From positions 1-55,491 of the forward strand of contig CALIDI010000036.1 of the NCBI GenBank assembly GCA_938023035.1: 55,491 nt of DNA, read 5' to 3'. Numbering within the stretch: position 1 is the stretch's first letter; each line of letters opens with the position of its first letter. This document shows, in pieces, positions 3,620 to 19,618 of the stretch. A program made the position numbers and the translations under genes. This stretch comes from an uncultured Leptolyngbyaceae cyanobacterium. GTDB lineage: Bacteria; Cyanobacteriota; Cyanobacteriia; Leptolyngbyales; Leptolyngbyaceae. The notes below the pieces were generated by a model. It made no database searches and was not told the DNA's origin. It saw nothing but the letters and a program-made list of their open reading frames with translations.

Positions 3620-6085
3620 CTATTCTACCGCCTGAGGCAACAGCTCTCGCCGCTCACCCGGCAAAACCCTAACATTACCATCATCAGCAACATCTACCAC
3701 CGCCGTATCTCCATCCTTAATGCGACCTGAAAGAATCTCTTCCGCTAGAGAATCTTCTAACAGTCGCATGATGGCGCGGCGGAGGGGCCGAGCACCATAG
3801 CTGGGGTTATAGCCCTCTTCCACGAGACGATCTTTGAATTTCTCCGTGACCTCCAGGGTAATACCCTGCTCTTGGAGACGCTTAAAGACATCGCGCAACA
3901 TAATGTCGGCAATCTCTTTTACTTCGTCTTTCTTGAGCTGACGGAAGACAATGATCTCATCTAGACGGTTTAAGAACTCAGGCCGGAAGAACTGTTTCAA
4001 CTCTTCGTTCACCAGCGATCGCACACGATTGTACTGTGATTCATTCGGGTCATCGGAGGCAAACTCAAAGCCCAGACCACCGCCACCCTTCTCAATGACC
4101 TTCGAGCCAATGTTCGAAGTCATGATCAGAAGGGTGTTTTTGAAGTCTACTGTGCGACCCTTGGCATCAGTCAGACGACCATCTTCCAGGATTTGCAACA
4201 GCATGTTAAAGACATCGGGGTGGGCCTTCTCAATTTCGTCGAATAACACCACCGTATAGGGCCGCCGTCGCACTGCTTCAGTTAACTGGCCGCCTTCGTT
4301 GTAGCCCACATAACCTGGAGGTGACCCAATCAGCTTCGAAACCGTGTGCCGCTCCATGTATTCCGACATATCCAGCCGGATCATGGCATCTTCTGAGCCA
4401 AAGAAGTAGGCTGCTAATGCTTTGGTCAGCTCTGTCTTACCAACACCCGTAGGGCCAGAGAAAATAAAGCTGGCAATGGGCCGATTGGGGTTCTTTAAGC
4501 CCACCCGTGCCCGGCGAATGGCACGAGAGACGGCTTTGACGGCTTCATCCTGACCAATTAACCGCTGATGCAGGGTTTCCTCCATATGCAGCAACTTCTC
4601 AGACTCGGTCTCGGTGAGCTTGTTCACCGGTACCCCTGTCCAAGATGCCACGATATGGGCAATATCTTCTTCGGTAACGACTGGCTCTTCGCCCGAACCT
4701 TCATTCTTCTTGTTTTGAGCGATCGCCCGGATCTCAGCTTTGATTTCCATTTCGCGATCGCGCAGCTCGCCAGCGCGGTCAAAGTTTTGGGAGCGTACGG
4801 CATCATCTTTATCTTTAAGAACCTGACGCAGCTCCTTATCTAGCTCCTTAGCGGCTGGAGGCAACTGAGAGTTAATCAAACGCACCCGAGAACCCGCTTC
4901 ATCAACTAAGTCGATCGCTTTATCGGGCAAATAACGGTCAGAAATATACCGATCTGAGAGCTTGGCGGCTGCTTCCAAAGCTAGGTCAGAAATTTTTAGC
5001 TTGTGATGCTGCTCATAGCGCTCGCGTAGACCCCGAAGGATTTCGATGGTTTCTTCAACGCTAGGCTCGCCCACCATCACAGGCTGGAAACGCCGCTCAA
5101 GCGCTGCATCTCGCTCGATATGCTTACGGTATTCATCCAGAGTGGTTGCCCCAATACACTGCAACTCACCCCTTGCCAGGGCAGGTTTCAGAATATTCGC
5201 CGCATCGATCGCACCCTCAGCTGCACCGGCACCAATCAGGGTATGGACTTCGTCAATGACCAGAATGACATTGCCCGCTGAGCGGATCTCATCCATGATT
5301 TTCTTGAGGCGCTCTTCAAATTCCCCTCGATACTTGGTTCCTGCCACTAGCAACCCAATATCCAGGGTGACGACACGCTTGTCTTCGAGAATATCTGGAA
5401 CATCATCGTTAGCGATGCGCTGGGCCAAACCCTCGGCGATTGCAGTCTTACCAACCCCCGGCTCCCCAATCAAAACCGGGTTATTTTTGGTGCGGCGACC
5501 CAAAATCTGAATCACCCGCTCAATTTCTTTTTGGCGACCCACCACAGGGTCAAGCTTGCCCTCTGCGGCCATTTGAGTCAGGTTTGAGCCAAACTCATCG
5601 AGGGTCGGCGTTTTTGTCCGACCCTGAGAACCACCCGAAGTCACCTCTGCGGTTTCACCCAGCATCCGAATAACCTGGGTGCGAACCTTTGACAGATCCA
5701 CTCCCAAATTTTCTAGAACTCTGGCGGCAACGCCTTCCCCTTCCCGGATTAGGCCCAGGAGCAGGTGTTCCGTGCCGATGTAATTGTGCCCCAGTTGACG
5801 AGCTTCTTCGAGAGATAGCTCTAGTACCCGCTTAGCGCGAGGGGTAAACGGAATCTCAACGGCAACGAAACCAGAACCGCGACCAATGATTTTTTCGACT
5901 TCGATACGAGCGTCTTTGAGATTAACGCCCATCGACTTTAAGACTTTGGCAGCGACACCGGTTCCTTCACCAATCAACCCTAGGAGGATTTGTTCCGTGC
6001 CCACAAAATTATGACCCAGGCGGCGGGCTTCCTCCTGGGCTAGCATGATCACCTTAATGGCTTTTTCTGTGAAGCGTTCAAACAT
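3620..6085 (-). CDS. clpC: ClpC, Hsp100 AAA+ chaperone/protease ATPase
   Basis: An 821-residue Hsp100 protein of full family length. In order it has two Clp N repeats (about 1-145, each with a [20 protein letters not shown]-type motif), a first AAA+ domain with Walker A GEPGVGKT at 207-214, a middle UVR segment ([17 protein letters not shown]), and a second AAA+ domain with Walker A GPTGVGKT and Walker [11 protein letters not shown]. ClpC unfolds proteins and feeds them into the ClpP/ClpR peptidase of the cytosol. In cyanobacteria it is normally essential and also takes part in degrading photosynthetic components. The start ATG gives the canonical [13 protein letters not shown]. It is followed by its own terminator. 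Confidence 0.98.
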
Positions 6086-12871: not shown

Positions 12872-13042
12872 ATGCAAGCTTACCAGTATTCTCCTTCCCC
12901 TTCCCCTTCTCCACTGTCCTCTCCTCAACGATCTTTGAGCCAGCAACCATCGCGGATAAAGTTGCTGCCTCCGGTACCGCTGCCGAGAAGGAGCAACCTC
13001 CTTGACCGACCCGGTCTCGTATGTGCGCGATCGCTGTCTTAA
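12872..13042 (+). CDS. Possible small Ser/Pro-rich protein upstream of the kinase
   Basis: ATG at 12872 lies about 8 nt after AAAGGA and opens a 56-codon frame: a repeated Ser-Pro stretch (YSPSPSPSPLSSPQ), then a basic/proline region, to TAA at 13040-13042. It ends 61 bp before the chosen kinase start and overlaps a longer, unlikely TTG-initiated extension of the kinase frame. The good ribosome-binding site supports it. Low complexity and lack of known relatives argue for caution. Confidence 0.35.
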   Translation: MQAYQYSPSPSPSPLSSPQRSLSQQPSRIKLLPPVPLPRRSNLLDRPGLVCARSLS

Positions 13043-13103
13043 CTCAAAGCTATCTTCACTTTCAGGGCATAAATTCATTCTCAAAAATGATCGAGTCAGA
13101 CCT

Positions 13104-15320
13104 ATGGAACAACTCATTGGGCAAAAACTAGGCGATCGCTATCAAATCGGCTCTCTACTCGGTCGTCAGACGGGGCGGAGAACCTATCTGGCACAGGATT
13201 TACAAACTGAGTTGCCAGTTGTCATCAAACTCCTCTTGTTTGGTCCCGACTTTACCTGGGAAGATTTGAAGCTATTTGAGCGGGAAGCTGAGACCCTAAA
13301 ATCCCTTGACCATCCGGCAATTCCTCGGTACCTCGACTTTTTTGAAGTGGAGACAGAACTGGGCAAAGGGCTTGCCTTGGTGCAAAGTTATATTGAGTCC
13401 AGATCTCTCCAGGCGTGGGTGCAGTTTGGTCGTACCTTTAGCGAGGAGGACTTGCAGGCGATCGCCAGCCAACTGCTAGAAATCCTCGATTATCTCCATA
13501 GTCGTCAACCCCCTGTCATCCATCGAGACATCAAGCCTGGGAATATTTTGCTCGGGGATCGTAGTGGCAACAGCCCTGGACAGGTGCATCTGGTTGATTT
13601 TGGCTCTGTACAAACCGTCCAGCATGGCGGTACAGTGACCGTGGTCGGCACCTATGGTTATATGCCCCCAGAGCAATTTGGGGGACGCACTATCCCAGCT
13701 TCTGATCTCTATGGGCTGGGAGCCACACTGATTTATTTGGCAACTGGAAAGCATCCCTGTGATCTGCCCCATCAGGCGATGAAAATTCAGTTTAAGGAAC
13801 GGGTTTGTCTCAACCCAGCGTTGATCAATTGGTTGCAATTGATGGTAGAACCGAGCCTAGAGCTACGCTTTCAGTCGGCAAAGCAGGCATTGGAGGCACT
13901 GAAAAACTCAAGTTTCCGAGAACATATCCCAGCGATCGCCAACAAACCCTTCTACAGCAACGTAAAAGTTACCCATTCCCGGCAGAGCTTGGAGATTCTT
14001 ATCCCACCAAAGCTCAATTTTGTTGAGCGAATCGCAGCCTTGATGTTCGGATGTTTCGGAATCATAATGAGCTGGATGGGGATCAGTCTAGGAAGTGTCG
14101 CTCTGTCTAATTGGAGTACTTTCAGCTCAGCAGAAGTCTTAGTTGCGACTATAGGTGGGAGCATTTTTTTACTGTTAGGTTTGAGCGTAATTTTAGGAGT
14201 GCTTCGTTCTATTTCGCATCAGAAGCTGCACATTGCGCCCCAAAGAATTTTTTTAGAGGATCAACTCTTTGGAATCCGGGTTCCATTCAGACGTGCTATG
14301 GCTCGTTCAGCGATCACACAAATTGAGCCAGTTCATATTCGATATAGACAAGGTTCTGAAGGAACAACGGTTGCTGTGCCACCTCGCATTAACATTTGGG
14401 CAGGTATCAAAAAACTTGAATTCAGTAATGATTCCTTCAGTTCGATAGGTCGGCTAACCGAGCAAGAAGTTGATTGGTTAGTGCAGATTTTATGCCAATA
14501 CTTAGACGTGTCGCTCAAAAGGATAAGTGATGATAGCAGAGCTAGCACTAATCAAGAAAAGCCAGTGGCTCTTGCTGCAAGCGATGTAAAAACCCAGTTT
14601 TGCTACTCTACAGAAAACAGACAATGGTGCTCAACGGCTCGTGAGCAACTAGCTGAAATCAATCGTCCAGATAATGCTATCTGTAAAATCCAAAAAAATG
14701 AACAATCACTTGAAATTGATACACCTTTTGTTCTGTTTAACTCTAAAAAAACTCTTCTTAATACCATTTTACTCGGGATCTTACTAGAGTGTTTCGGTTT
14801 CTTCCCGCTGTGGATCTGTTTTATAAGAGTGATATTACCGATGATCGCCCCGTGGCTAAATACAGTTACCGCAGCCATACCAGAATTGCTGATTCCAATA
14901 TTAATCATTATTTTACTTTCAAGCATTGCTCCTATGCTTGGGTTCATCTACTGGAGCTTTCGTTCAAAGAAAAATCGTCACGAATCTGTCAAAACTATCC
15001 TCAAAATAGACCGATATAGTGTGGTTATTTGGGAGCAATTTCAGATGAAACCGTTCCAATATCGTGAACGACGTTTAGCGAAAATTCCTCGCAGCGCCAT
15101 ACAAAAATTGAAATTAGTATACAAAAAGGGCGTGAGCGCGAGCTACCACGTTTGTATCTCTGGCAAAAGTGCGGACACAAGCTTTGAAAAAAATCTCTTC
15201 GTTGGTAACCGTTCCTTCTGGCTGTCTCAACAGGAAGCCGAATGGATAGCCTACGAATTAAGTGTTTGGTTAAACTTGCCCATCACTGAAGTTGAGGTTC
15301 GTTATGGATCAGATGGTTAA
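13104..15320 (+). CDS. Ser/Thr protein kinase with two membrane/PH-like modules
   Basis: From ATG 13104 the product has 738 residues. The kinase domain (about 10-290) has a divergent glycine loop (LLGRQTGRRTYLA), Lys42 in VVIK, HRDIKPGNIL at 140-149, DFG at 165-167 and YMPPEQFGG, so it should be active. The C-terminal half holds two successive modules. Each has a pair of membrane helices (about 313-375 and 575-650), then a beta-rich part, then a closing helix with related sequence (LTEQEVDWLVQILCQYLDV and LSQQEAEWIAYELSVWL). The protein is thus a membrane-tethered Pkn2-type kinase. Its last 17 bp overlap the ancient start of a second, now broken kinase. Substrate unknown. Confidence 0.9.
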   Translation: MEQLIGQKLGDRYQIGSLLGRQTGRRTYLAQDLQTELPVVIKLLLFGPDFTWEDLKLFEREAETLKSLDHPAIPRYLDFFEVETELGKGLALVQSYIESRSLQAWVQFGRTFSEEDLQAIASQLLEILDYLHSRQPPVIHRDIKPGNILLGDRSGNSPGQVHLVDFGSVQTVQHGGTVTVVGTYGYMPPEQFGGRTIPASDLYGLGATLIYLATGKHPCDLPHQAMKIQFKERVCLNPALINWLQLMVEPSLELRFQSAKQALEALKNSSFREHIPAIANKPFYSNVKVTHSRQSLEILIPPKLNFVERIAALMFGCFGIIMSWMGISLGSVALSNWSTFSSAEVLVATIGGSIFLLLGLSVILGVLRSISHQKLHIAPQRIFLEDQLFGIRVPFRRAMARSAITQIEPVHIRYRQGSEGTTVAVPPRINIWAGIKKLEFSNDSFSSIGRLTEQEVDWLVQILCQYLDVSLKRISDDSRASTNQEKPVALAASDVKTQFCYSTENRQWCSTAREQLAEINRPDNAICKIQKNEQSLEIDTPFVLFNSKKTLLNTILLGILLECFGFFPLWICFIRVILPMIAPWLNTVTAAIPELLIPILIIILLSSIAPMLGFIYWSFRSKKNRHESVKTILKIDRYSVVIWEQFQMKPFQYRERRLAKIPRSAIQKLKLVYKKGVSASYHVCISGKSADTSFEKNLFVGNRSFWLSQQEAEWIAYELSVWLNLPITEVEVRYGSDG

Positions 15321-16718
15321 CTAAGTTTTGCGAGATCGCTACCAGATTCAATCTTTGTTGGGTCGGCAAACTGGACGTAGAACCTTTCTGGCGGAGGATG
15401 AAGAAACGATTTCACCAGTGGTGATTAAGTTGCTGTTGTTTGGGCCTGACTTTACCTGGGAAGGGAAGATTTGAAGTTATTTGAGCGGGAAGCTGAGACC
15501 CTAAAATCCCTTGACCACCCAGCCATTCCTCGATACCTCGACTTTTTTGAAGTGGAGACGGAACTGGGCAGAGGGTTTGCCTTGGTGCAAAGTTATATTG
15601 AAGCGCGATCACTGCGGGAGCGGGTACAGTTTAATCGCAGCTTTAGCGAAAATGACCTGATCGATATTGCCAAACAACTGCTAAGCATTCTGGAATATCT
15701 CCATTGTCGTCAACCCCCGGTCATCCATCGAGACATTAAGCCCAGTAACATTTTGCTCAGCGATCGCAGTGGCAACAGTCCAGGACAGGTGCATCTGGTT
15801 GATTTTGGCTCTGTACAAACCGTCCAGCATGGCGGCACAGTGACCGTGGTCGGCACCTATGGTTATATGCCCCCAGAGCAATTTGGGGGGCGATCGCTGC
15901 CGGTTTCTGACCTCTATAGCGTGGGTGCAACCTTAATTTATCTGGCAACTGGACAAGACCCAGCAGATCTACCTCAAAAAGAGATGCGGATTGAGTTTGA
16001 GCCAGTTGCAACTTTGAGCTACCCGTTTACCCGTTGGCTGCAATGGTTAACCCAACCTAACCCAGCCCAACGCCCTACTTCTGCCCAGCAGGCTCTACAG
16101 CCACTAGCACAGGGGTTGAATGATTCCCTTCCGATTCAGCGATCGTGCTTCCCTTTTGCAGCCGGGGCACATCAATTCAGTTCTAGGCTGAAACTCCAAA
16201 AAATATCCTCATTCTTTGAACTGATTGTCCCTGCTGGTAGCGTGAAACTTCCCAAAGACCCAGACAAGGCAGGGCCATGGTCCTGCTTAGGTTGTTTTGG
16301 TCATCTCTTTGTGTCGATCACGCTCATCACTTATCTAGGCTGGGGAGGGGTTGGAATTACTCTTTGCCTATCGGTAATCTTCTCCTATATTATTGCTAAA
16401 TGGTTTCCCAGAAGACATCTAATTCGTCCGTCTTTTTACAAACTGACATTAAAGCGGGAGAATCACTCTTTTATCCTTGATCTCTTGCCAAGCTTACCAG
16501 ATAAAACAATTACTCCTCCAAACCAATGTCTCGGCAGGCTCAATTCCCTGTGTGCAGGCCATGAGAATGTGCCGATGTATTGTCTCGGCCTTTATTGTGA
16601 GAATAGCTCCTTACACATTCAGGGAAGTCGTTCTGAGATTCACTGGCTTTGTGATGAATTCAATGAATGGACAGGGCTTGAGGTCAAGTATAGAGACTAT
16701 AGCCCACCAAGCGCTTGA
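15304..16718 (+). pseudogene. Second Ser/Thr kinase, broken by a nonsense codon and a 5-bp tandem duplication
   Basis: The region aligns with the preceding kinase from its ATG. M-D-Q-M-V-N-stop-V-L-R-DRYQ corresponds to MEQLIGQKLGDRYQ, with TAA (15322-15324) where the intact copy has CAA. A second lesion is GGAAG repeated in tandem at 15459-15468 (one copy in the intact gene), which shifts the frame just after TWE. Removing 5 bp restores one frame of exactly 470 codons including stop. The downstream open part (from TTG 15471) keeps HRDIKPSNIL and DFG but lacks the ATP-binding lysine, so a restart product would be inactive. The tail is shorter than in kinase 1: two membrane helices near CFGHLFVSITLITYLG and one closing module. 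It could still be a regulatory pseudokinase, but decay is simpler. Confidence 0.85.
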
Positions 16719-16747: not shown

Positions 16748-17272
16748 ATGCAAATGAAAAAAAGCGATCTTTGGCAAATCCTGAGCCTGCCTCAAACCTA
16801 TGGACTCATGCTTGGAGTCAGCCTTGGGTATGGCATGCTGGTTTACTGGCTGGGCTTCGGCACCCTTGTGCTCATCCCTGGAGGCATAATTTCCCTGGGT
16901 ACTTTGTGCCTCTGGTTTTGGCAAATTTATCCATTACCTGTAGCTGCAACGCTATTAAATCAGAGTACTTTTCAAACCCACTTAGCCCAATTCAAACTAG
17001 GGCCATCTGTCTCGGCTCAGCAGCATCCTTGGCCTCAGGTTTGCCAACAAGCGAGAGAAAGCCAAGCATTTGCTGCTCAAATTGCCGCTCAGGAACCTAG
17101 TCTCATTCCTGACCTGCTGGAGGCACTGCATACTGTTCTAGCCCTGGTAGAAAAGGTTGGACAGACGCTCCAAGCCTTAGATACTGTACAGTCAACGAGC
17201 TATCGACAATTGGCTGGTGAATTTTTAGTCGCTAATGGCTTTGTTGCACGAATACCTGAATCCCTTGTGTAG
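16748..17272 (+). CDS. Two-helix membrane protein, C-terminus replaced by a MITE insertion
   Basis: The gene starts at ATG 16748 behind AGGGGAA, 29 bp after the broken kinase. The 174-residue product has two adjacent membrane helices (about 17-40 and 41-62, with GYGMLVYWLGFGTLVLIPGG) and a cytoplasmic helical part rich in Q and A. The last native codon is at 17236. The following residues, GFVARIPESLV, are read from the inserted element until TAG. Joining 17236 to 17370 restores an in-frame end of 35 residues (198 residues in all). The original family is not recognised. It may have formed one unit with the two kinases. Whether the truncated form works is unknown. Confidence 0.7.
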   Translation: MQMKKSDLWQILSLPQTYGLMLGVSLGYGMLVYWLGFGTLVLIPGGIISLGTLCLWFWQIYPLPVAATLLNQSTFQTHLAQFKLGPSVSAQQHPWPQVCQQARESQAFAAQIAAQEPSLIPDLLEALHTVLALVEKVGQTLQALDTVQSTSYRQLAGEFLVANGFVARIPESLV

Positions 17273-17369
17273 CAAGGATCGTCAACTGATCTCATTTATT
17301 GACAAAGTCTTGTGTAGTAGGCTTTTCAGCCAAAAGTCGGATTCATTATGCAACAAAGCCGTCGCTAAT
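17228..17369. mobile_element. 124-bp MITE (17237-17360) with 12-bp inverted ends and 9-bp target duplication
   Basis: The element begins GGCTTTGTTGCA at 17237 and ends with the exact complement TGCAACAAAGCC at 17360. Directly outside, GTCGCTAAT occurs on both sides (17228-17236 and 17361-17369), a perfect 9-bp target-site duplication. It has no transposase frame, so it is a miniature element moved in trans. Ends starting GGCTTTGTTG and a 9-bp duplication fit the IS903 group of the IS5 family; that assignment is from memory of the family. The perfect duplication means insertion was recent. It lies inside the coding sequence of the membrane protein. Confidence 0.9.
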
Positions 17370-17477
17370 TGTAGACGTTTAGAAGTGACCCATGGTCAAC
17401 TACAAGATTTACGTGACCAAGTTCTTCTGGCTCAGTTGAATCATCTGGATAGTGACTCTGATATGGGCCTACTCTAG
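17370..17477 (+). pseudogene. Severed 3' end of the membrane-protein gene
   Basis: After the right-hand target duplication the original reading frame resumes with CRRLEVTHGQLQDLRDQVLL and runs to TAG at 17475-17477 (35 codons). It fuses in frame to the part ending at 17236 if the element and one duplication copy are removed. It has no start of its own. Confidence 0.8.
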
Positions 17478-17800
17478 CGCCTCTGCCTGATTATTGAGGC
17501 GAACCAGACTGTTTTGCGATCGCCAACCTTGAAATCACTCTAGTACCCTACGATGGCAATCAACCCACTGTTCAAAATATGCGTGTTATGGCAGCCGTGT
17601 GATGAAGCACAGAGCACAGGGTTGGAACCCTGCCCCTAACTCCCTTAACCCTCAATGGACTGGTCTTCTAGCGATGGCGATATCTTGTCTTATGAATTTC
17701 TGAATGACCTTCGATTTGTCTAACTTTGATTGATTTGATTCACCACACTTGCACCAATTAAATCACAAAACTACGTCTCTGCTTTTCCAGAATAGAAGCC
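17478..17800. other. Intergenic region before the VWA lipoprotein gene
   Basis: It begins with a hairpin (CGCCTC, 12-nt loop, GAGGCG, about 17478-17505) without a T-run, which may end the kinase transcript. The rest shows no gene. No clear promoter pair is seen. Confidence 0.45.
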
Positions 17801-19618
17801 ATGAAAATTCTAAACATCAGAGTCATTAATTTACACAAGATTTGGCGGCTAGTCTGTTATTTACAGCAGTATATAAAGTCTAATCGCCCGATCATCTTAG
17901 GCTGTATGAGTGGTTTATGTCTGGCTTTCCTGGCTGCCTGTGTCAGTGGTTCTACTTTTACTGTTGATTCTTTTGAGACCGCAGATCGGGTGATTCGGGA
18001 GCAACTCCTGCCCAAAATTCAGGTAGAAACTGTTCATATCCCAGATGCGATCGCCCAGCGCTACACGACTCAACCAGTAGCTGATCCATTGCCCAACCTG
18101 CAAGATTTCCCCCTCTATGGGGCGCAGCCACCAGATAGAGCGAGCAACACCCTCTATCTAGAAATCTTTGGCTCAGCCGATAAGAGTAATGCCAAACGAC
18201 AGGAAGAGCGCTGGCTGGTCGATGTGGCTGAGGCGTTTAACCAGAAGCAAGCGACGACCCGTTCTGGCAAGGTTATTCAGATCGGTGTGCGCAATTTGCC
18301 CTCCGGAATTGCGGCCCGTCTTTTGACTTCTGGGGCGGCAAAACCTGCGGCCTACATCCCAACAAATGCCCTATGGCTACAAATGCTGCGTCAGCAGGGT
18401 ATCAAATTTACTTCTATTGCTCAACGGCTGGCTCCCTGTATGTCTGGCTTTGTTTTGCAAGATCAGGTCTATCGAGATCTCGCTAAAGCGGGAGAAGTCA
18501 ACTTTGAACGGGTATTAGACGCGATTCTGGCAGGCAAGTTACAGGTGGGATATACCAACCCTTACAGTAGCTCCACTGCTCTCAACTTTCTCTACACCCT
18601 GTTTTGGTATAGCGCAAATCATGCCAAAGATGGCAAGTCTTTGACTGTCAGTGATTTACAGTTGCCCCAGATTAATTCAACTTTTAGTGCCTTCCAAAAT
18701 CAAGTTTTAGTAACTTCAGCAACAACTCTAGAGCTAAAAGAAGTTTTTATTCGTGACTATCATAAACTCCAGATCATTGTCTCTGACTCACCCTCTTATG
18801 AAACCTTGAGGAAGCTTCCTGATATGGAAAACTTGATATTTATCCCCTTTGGCATTCCTCAAGAAGGAACTCTTGTTAGCTTTGACTGGAACACCCCAGA
18901 ACAAGTAGAAGCGCTTCGGCAATTCAGTCAGTTTGCCCTTTCCCCGGTTATGCAGGGATGTGCTAGAGCATTGGGTTATCAACTGCCTGCCTCAACTCAA
19001 AACATCCTCACTCCGCCTTTGCCATCGGGGCAGGTTCTGCAAGCAGCTCAATCCTATTGGAAAAAGCGCAAGGACGGAGGGCGAAGTGTCTACATGATGG
19101 TAGTAGTTGATACTAGTGGCTCTATGGAAGGAGAGCGGCTCAATGCCCTGAAACAGAGTTTGCAACGAGCACTGCAAGAAATTAATCTAGGGAATTATGT
19201 GGGATTGCTGAGCTTTAGCGATCGCCCCCACAAAATCGTGTCGCTCGCCCCCTTTGACACCTCCCAGCATCAGCGCTTGCTGGCTGCGATTGATCATCTC
19301 AGAGCAGATGGAAACACCGCCCTATACGATGGGGTGATTGTGGGTCTGGCCGAACTGATGAACTACCGCAAAAAAGACCTTGATGGCCGCTTTTATCTGC
19401 TCCTGCTATCGAACGGTGAAGTCAATAGAGGGCTTAGATTTGAGCAGGTGCAGGGGATTCTCACTGAGAGTGGTGTACGCCTCTATCCAGTCGCCTATGG
19501 TGAAGTCAACCAGCAAGAAATGAAGGCGATCGCCGCTCTACGAGAAGCTACTGTCAAATCTGGCACACCTCAAAATTTGCAAAACCTCCTGAAAGACTTT
19601 TTTCAAACTGCCCTATGA
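17801..19618 (+). CDS. Lipoprotein joining a solute-binding domain and a VWA domain
   Basis: A 605-residue protein. A basic N-terminus and hydrophobic segment end in a lipobox (FLAAC, Cys47), so the mature protein is probably anchored to the membrane on the outside. Residues about 110-415 resemble a type-2 extracellular solute-binding protein (LYLEIFGSADKSNAKRQEE, then a TNPYSSSTALNFLYTLF hinge segment). The C-terminus (about 430-605) is a von Willebrand A domain with MIDAS motif DTSGS (437-441) and the T-containing loop DGNTALYDG. The usual aspartate of LTDG is replaced (LSNGE), which weakens but does not exclude metal binding. It probably senses or captures a ligand in the envelope and contacts partners through the VWA face. 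It lies downstream of the kinase block on the same strand. Confidence 0.85.
   Translation: MKILNIRVINLHKIWRLVCYLQQYIKSNRPIILGCMSGLCLAFLAACVSGSTFTVDSFETADRVIREQLLPKIQVETVHIPDAIAQRYTTQPVADPLPNLQDFPLYGAQPPDRASNTLYLEIFGSADKSNAKRQEERWLVDVAEAFNQKQATTRSGKVIQIGVRNLPSGIAARLLTSGAAKPAAYIPTNALWLQMLRQQGIKFTSIAQRLAPCMSGFVLQDQVYRDLAKAGEVNFERVLDAILAGKLQVGYTNPYSSSTALNFLYTLFWYSANHAKDGKSLTVSDLQLPQINSTFSAFQNQVLVTSATTLELKEVFIRDYHKLQIIVSDSPSYETLRKLPDMENLIFIPFGIPQEGTLVSFDWNTPEQVEALRQFSQFALSPVMQGCARALGYQLPASTQNILTPPLPSGQVLQAAQSYWKKRKDGGRSVYMMVVVDTSGSMEGERLNALKQSLQRALQEINLGNYVGLLSFSDRPHKIVSLAPFDTSQHQRLLAAIDHLRADGNTALYDGVIVGLAELMNYRKKDLDGRFYLLLLSNGEVNRGLRFEQVQGILTESGVRLYPVAYGEVNQQEMKAIAALREATVKSGTPQNLQNLLKDFFQTAL

Follow-up and report, generated by a model that had tools for sequence, protein, structure and literature searches.

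A MITE with IS903-group ends interrupts a probably decaying membrane-protein gene in a Leptolyngbyaceae cyanobacterium

We consider it highly probable that, in the DNA stretch of an uncultured Leptolyngbyaceae cyanobacterium analysed here (55,491 nucleotides, hereafter the window), a transposase inserted an IS903-type MITE of 124 bp into a host gene that is probably decaying. Judging from its ends, the length of its target-site duplication and the length of related ISs, the element is a MITE with ends of the IS903 group (IS5 family). The insertion is real and well supported, yet ordinary, i.e. a further member of a known MITE type. As read from the sequence, the host gene carries two lesions: the MITE itself and an in-frame TAG stop that the earlier note on this DNA had missed.

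The MITE occupies positions 17237–17360 (no strand assigned) and is delimited by perfect inverted ends: the left arm GGCTTTGTTGCA at 17237–17248 on the forward strand matches the right arm at 17349–17360 (TGCAACAAAGCC, or GGCTTTGTTGCA on the reverse strand) at 12/12 positions. Both sides are flanked by perfect copies (9/9) of the 9-bp target-site duplication GTCGCTAAT at 17228–17236 and 17361–17369 (forward strand). The element, its ends and its duplication are thus confirmed to the base as the earlier note described them. When the window was scanned for inverted repeats with exactly matching 12-bp arms at most 300 bp apart, five inverted-repeat starts were returned, and only the element at 17237–17360 has identical flanking 9-mers. 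Bacterial MITEs are a few hundred bp long at most. Repeats, frame list, database matches and window scan together show that the element (42% G+C) has what defines a bacterial MITE: it is short, it has terminal inverted repeats and a target-site duplication, it lacks a transposase frame and it has related copies in other genera. A scan of 17150–17850 found one promoter-like site, upstream of the element (shuffle mean 1.3), and no terminators.

The host gene is now read as a forward frame at 16748–17272, which encodes 174 amino acids, i.e. 163 native residues followed by 11 residues and a stop from the MITE. The duplicated target corresponds to codons 161–163 of this gene, so the insertion lies after codon 163. 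When the flanks are joined without the element, the first stop appears after 198 codons, and by that count 35 residues are lost. Homologs from four genera (L192–L195) align without interruption through both the insertion point and the place of the TAG stop, and their proteins end 53–63 residues past the former and 18–27 residues past the latter. On the 3′ side of the MITE, the window retains 35 codons of the homologous region (17370–17474), which resemble the C-terminus of the four relatives, then the TAG (17475–17477) inside a region present in all four homologs, then 21 further homolog-like codons (17478–17540) and the next in-frame stop (17541–17543). A tblastn search with the last 75 residues of the homologs against 240 window bases gave E values of 5e-15 to 1e-8, to be read loosely with so tiny a subject. 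Because the homologs run past the 198-codon stop and the window keeps such a remnant, the 198-residue frame is itself truncated. The earlier note had held that removing the insert restores this frame exactly and that 35 native residues were exchanged for 11: the frame is indeed rejoined and the exchange is right by frame count, but the native length is not recovered, since the homologs are 18–27 residues longer, and the second stop removes ∼21 residues more. Leaving out an insert to restore a frame therefore need not recover the native gene; here, it was the homologs that exposed the second lesion.

The alignment of homologs took four of the seven homolog rows besides the window. L196 (E 6e-4) was left out, as were L197 and L198, which are second pieces of already represented genomes; among the four, L195 is incomplete, its contig starting within the gene. 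Homologs of the host gene were detected in five of 57 other genomes and none was detected in the remaining 52; in the one genome of the same genus, no match to the element and no homolog of the gene were detected. The product appears by eye to be a small membrane protein because of a hydrophobic stretch, and searches with part of the interrupted protein and with two homologs matched no Pfam family.

The two lesions bear directly on the fate of the gene. An in-frame stop lies 35 codons past the insertion, which suggests that the gene is decaying and does not encode a new chimeric protein; decay is probably likelier than a useful new tail, and the host gene has presumably lost its function. It is quite improbable that the insertion yields a functional altered membrane protein with an 11-residue tail, or a second product of 80 codons. 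Both frames are present: an ATG formed at the left junction opens an 80-codon frame (17235–17477) that remains open across the whole element and runs into the native tail, and in MITEAba12 there is a precedent for host proteins fused with element residues, as reported in PMC6382973. Against this, the C-terminal region is conserved in the four aligned relatives, the second stop shortens the remaining tail and the frame across the element lacks conservation, being broken by stops in five of the nine members of the 118–125-bp type. A coding frame inside the element, although open in the window, was rejected on the same count, and the 80-codon frame is probably due to chance. We give hardly any credence to the proposal that no transposition took place and that the element is a chance inverted repeat, a native structured RNA or a regulatory element. 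Its DNA folds better than shuffled sequences do (z = −4.0, 0/200 shuffles equal), but its strongest helix is formed by the terminal repeat itself, and a native element is contradicted by the 9-bp duplication, by related copies flanked by duplications of their own and by the continuous homologs. A conserved RNA structure was likewise dismissed as adding little: RNAalifold on nine members gave 29 pairs, three with two-sided change, and again the terminal repeats formed the strongest helix.

An alternative that differs from the preferred explanation in the order of events alone is that the gene was already a pseudogene through its in-frame stop, and that the MITE then hit neutral sequence. This order is plausible, albeit clearly short of probable. 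The stop sits inside the conserved C-terminus and the neighbouring second kinase copy is frameshifted too; however, the 163 codons 5′ of the MITE form an open frame, the frame between the MITE and the stop is kept, and the order of lesions is not readable from one genome. In the preferred reading of MITE insertion into a probably decaying gene, a transposase would bind the ∼12–17-bp ends, insert the element and leave the 9-bp target duplication; the landing site would be the position after codon 163 of the small membrane-protein gene, which adjoins a VWA-domain gene; and translation would enter the element for 11 codons and then stop, so that the conserved C-terminal region would be lost. The perfect ends and perfect duplication suggest that the insertion is recent.

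The downstream neighbour at 17801–19618 (forward strand) contains a VWA domain identified by Pfam. By eye, a similar gene adjoins the homolog in three of the four relatives (i.e. L192, L194 and L195) and is absent beside the L193 homolog. In L193 (1315–3174), the homologous region forms the C-terminus of a protein of 619 aa; by eye, the N-terminal part of that protein resembles a CHAT-type domain, a possible clue to what the interrupted protein does. Upstream, the window contains a Ser/Thr-kinase-like gene (13002–15320; kinase by eye) and a second copy of it (15304–16718). This second copy is frameshifted near 15462–15465, with its N-terminal part in another frame, so this neighbouring gene also looks decayed.

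The MITE belongs to a family with members in several other cyanobacterial genomes. A single match lies in its own genome (4.75 Mb in 62 contigs), and BLAST found matches in six of 97 genomes including its own, i.e. in five of the 96 others. A sequence-only profile built from nine members matched at least 19 of 388 genomes, own included, with at least one to four matches in each (a place matched on both strands is sometimes counted twice); as at most nine candidates per genome were scored, these counts are lower bounds. No match at E 0.01 was found in the plasmid and phage collections. The nearest copy (L002) comes from a different genus within the family; it is identical at 118 of 124 positions and has its own duplication, GTTGTAAAA. 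By contrast, a conserved gene at 3620–6085 of the window (ClpC-like by eye) is 80% identical in the two hosts (2458 bases compared). The MITE copies thus differ far less than their hosts do, which, going by this one gene, points to horizontal transfer or a common recent source. Among 22 distinct family places with recognizable ends (at most three mismatches per 12-bp end), the 9-bp duplication is exact in 12, has one mismatch in two and two mismatches in one, and is missing in seven; ends and duplication were picked jointly by the script, which biases this count towards finding a duplication. The count excludes repeats (L216, L233 and L234), a place without a pair of ends (L232), places with a four-mismatch end (L218, L219, L227, L228 and L235) and a copy split by another element (L009/L067). 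In the latter (L067 1501–2776, genome G026), the related MITE is divided by another element, apparently IS630-like, which has two transposase-like frames and by eye sits beside a TA. That the gene is continuous in relatives and that related copies elsewhere have their own duplications bears out the insertion event proposed in the earlier note.

The earlier note had linked the end sequences to the IS5/IS903 group. The 9-bp duplication fits this assignment, as do two related ISs with ends similar to those of the MITE, neither from the genus of the window host but both from its family: L205 (1063 bp, 311-aa frame, duplication AGTAGAAAT) and L201 (1061 bp, 309-aa frame, duplication TTTATAGAC). Both match the IS5 transposase model NF033579 (NCBIfam) over its cut-off, and L205 also matches Pfam PF13737 and PF01609. 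A search of 58 genomes with PF13737 gave matches in 17 (above the cut-off in 15), whereas 14 control genomes gave none, and these two loci are the ones with exact 9-bp duplications among the 15 PF13737 loci checked for ends. In the genome of the window, PF13737 detects a 5′ (N-terminal) fragment at one end of each of contigs C38 and C59, both slightly under the curated cut-off (27.5 vs 28.1 bits), and NF033579 matches weakly (29.3 bits vs a cut-off of 140, over 43 residues). The IS 3′ ends with GGCTTTGTTGCA lie at the ends of contigs C41 and C47, and all four IS ends run off their contigs. The left flank on C38 and the right flank on C47 are both GTGCTTCCC, a 9-bp duplication, so a single IS copy probably bridges these two contigs; the flanks on C59 and C41 do not match each other. 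The left arm of the MITE matches the IS 3′ end at 16 of 17 positions and its right arm matches the C59 5′ end at 15 of 17.

A genome search for the 124-bp sequence and for a full IS with the same ends, as suggested in the earlier note, thus yields one MITE copy and the IS ends. We did not find the interior of the IS in the assembly, the usual outcome when repeats collapse. The active transposase elsewhere in the genome, as claimed there, thus stays putative: of a matching IS, only the ends are assembled, two of them with a common 9-bp duplication. The simplest reading is that the MITE was mobilized in trans by an IS903-group transposase, and its ends, its duplication and the ends of the partner ISs suggest that a resident IS supplied it. 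Derivation of the MITE by internal deletion of a parent IS was rejected, as no examined IS resembles it beyond the ∼17 terminal bp.

Nezha is among the known cyanobacterial MITEs. In open-licence PMC texts, a search for MITE, Leptolyngbya and transposase returned no paper, from which we make no claim that the element is unpublished; a search for the 12-bp end returned one relevant paper, that on MITEAba12 of Acinetobacter, the other three being human or mouse studies by title and abstract start. The 12-mer GGCTTTGTTGCA occurs 29 times in the text of that paper (PMC6382973). MITEAba12 is 113 bp long without known coding sequence, has 16-bp ends and generates 9-bp duplications (found in 36 of 90), is present as a single copy in the parental genome together with an ISAba12 with matching ends, and has fused a host gene to 31 element bases with a premature stop (PMC6382973). 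The window MITE resembles it in being non-coding, in its 9-bp duplication, its single genomic copy, its IS-like ends and the premature stop in its host gene. It differs in length (124 vs 113 bp) and in its cyanobacterial host, and movement has been observed for MITEAba12 (PMC6382973). The IS903-group elements of Paracoccus are 1050–1054 bp long with 9-bp duplications (PMC3281130). The window MITE shares the end type and the 9-bp duplication with the IS903 group, and the related ISs L201 and L205 are ∼1060 bp long with an IS5-family transposase; unlike these ISs, it has no transposase, and only the ends are in common.

Exact ends of this type spaced 110–140 bp apart were found in at least 122 pairs (99 distinct sequences) in at least 119 stretches, among the matches listed from Acinetobacter, other Proteobacteria, Bacteroidota, Cyanobacteria and others. 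Among the 122 pairs listed, the 9-bp duplication is exact in 48, has one mismatch in six, two in two and four or more in 65, and one pair lies at a contig edge; re-paired flanks agree at one mismatch or fewer in 0 of 1956 cases. We scored similarity to the core of the MITE against 300 shuffled cores: 12 of 13 cyanobacterial-titled elements outscore the best shuffle and none of 36 Acinetobacter-titled elements (34 loci) does so, both sets being hand-picked from 80 titles among the matches listed. The 14 best core scores among the 99 distinct elements listed all belong to cyanobacterial records. These scores separate the cyanobacterial family from the Acinetobacter elements despite their common ends; in so far as the 36 elements are MITEAba12, as presumed from record titles, the core of the window MITE is unrelated to it.

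Our results describe a family of cyanobacterial MITEs that has ends of the IS903 type, target duplications, a likely helper IS and near-identical copies in different genera. Tentatively, we regard it as a real possibility, if not yet a probability, that this family is patchy, apparently low in copy number and maintained in different cyanobacterial families mainly through horizontal transfer; it would be cross-mobilized by any resident IS903-group element, sharing only ∼17 terminal bases with its helpers while its own core stays recognizable across cyanobacteria. Two short Acinetobacter contigs (L131 and L145) contain two elements of this end type apiece. Two contigs titled Halobacteriales archaeon (L082 and L168) likewise contain elements with these exact 12-bp ends, a finding that may reflect either a binning error or wide spread.
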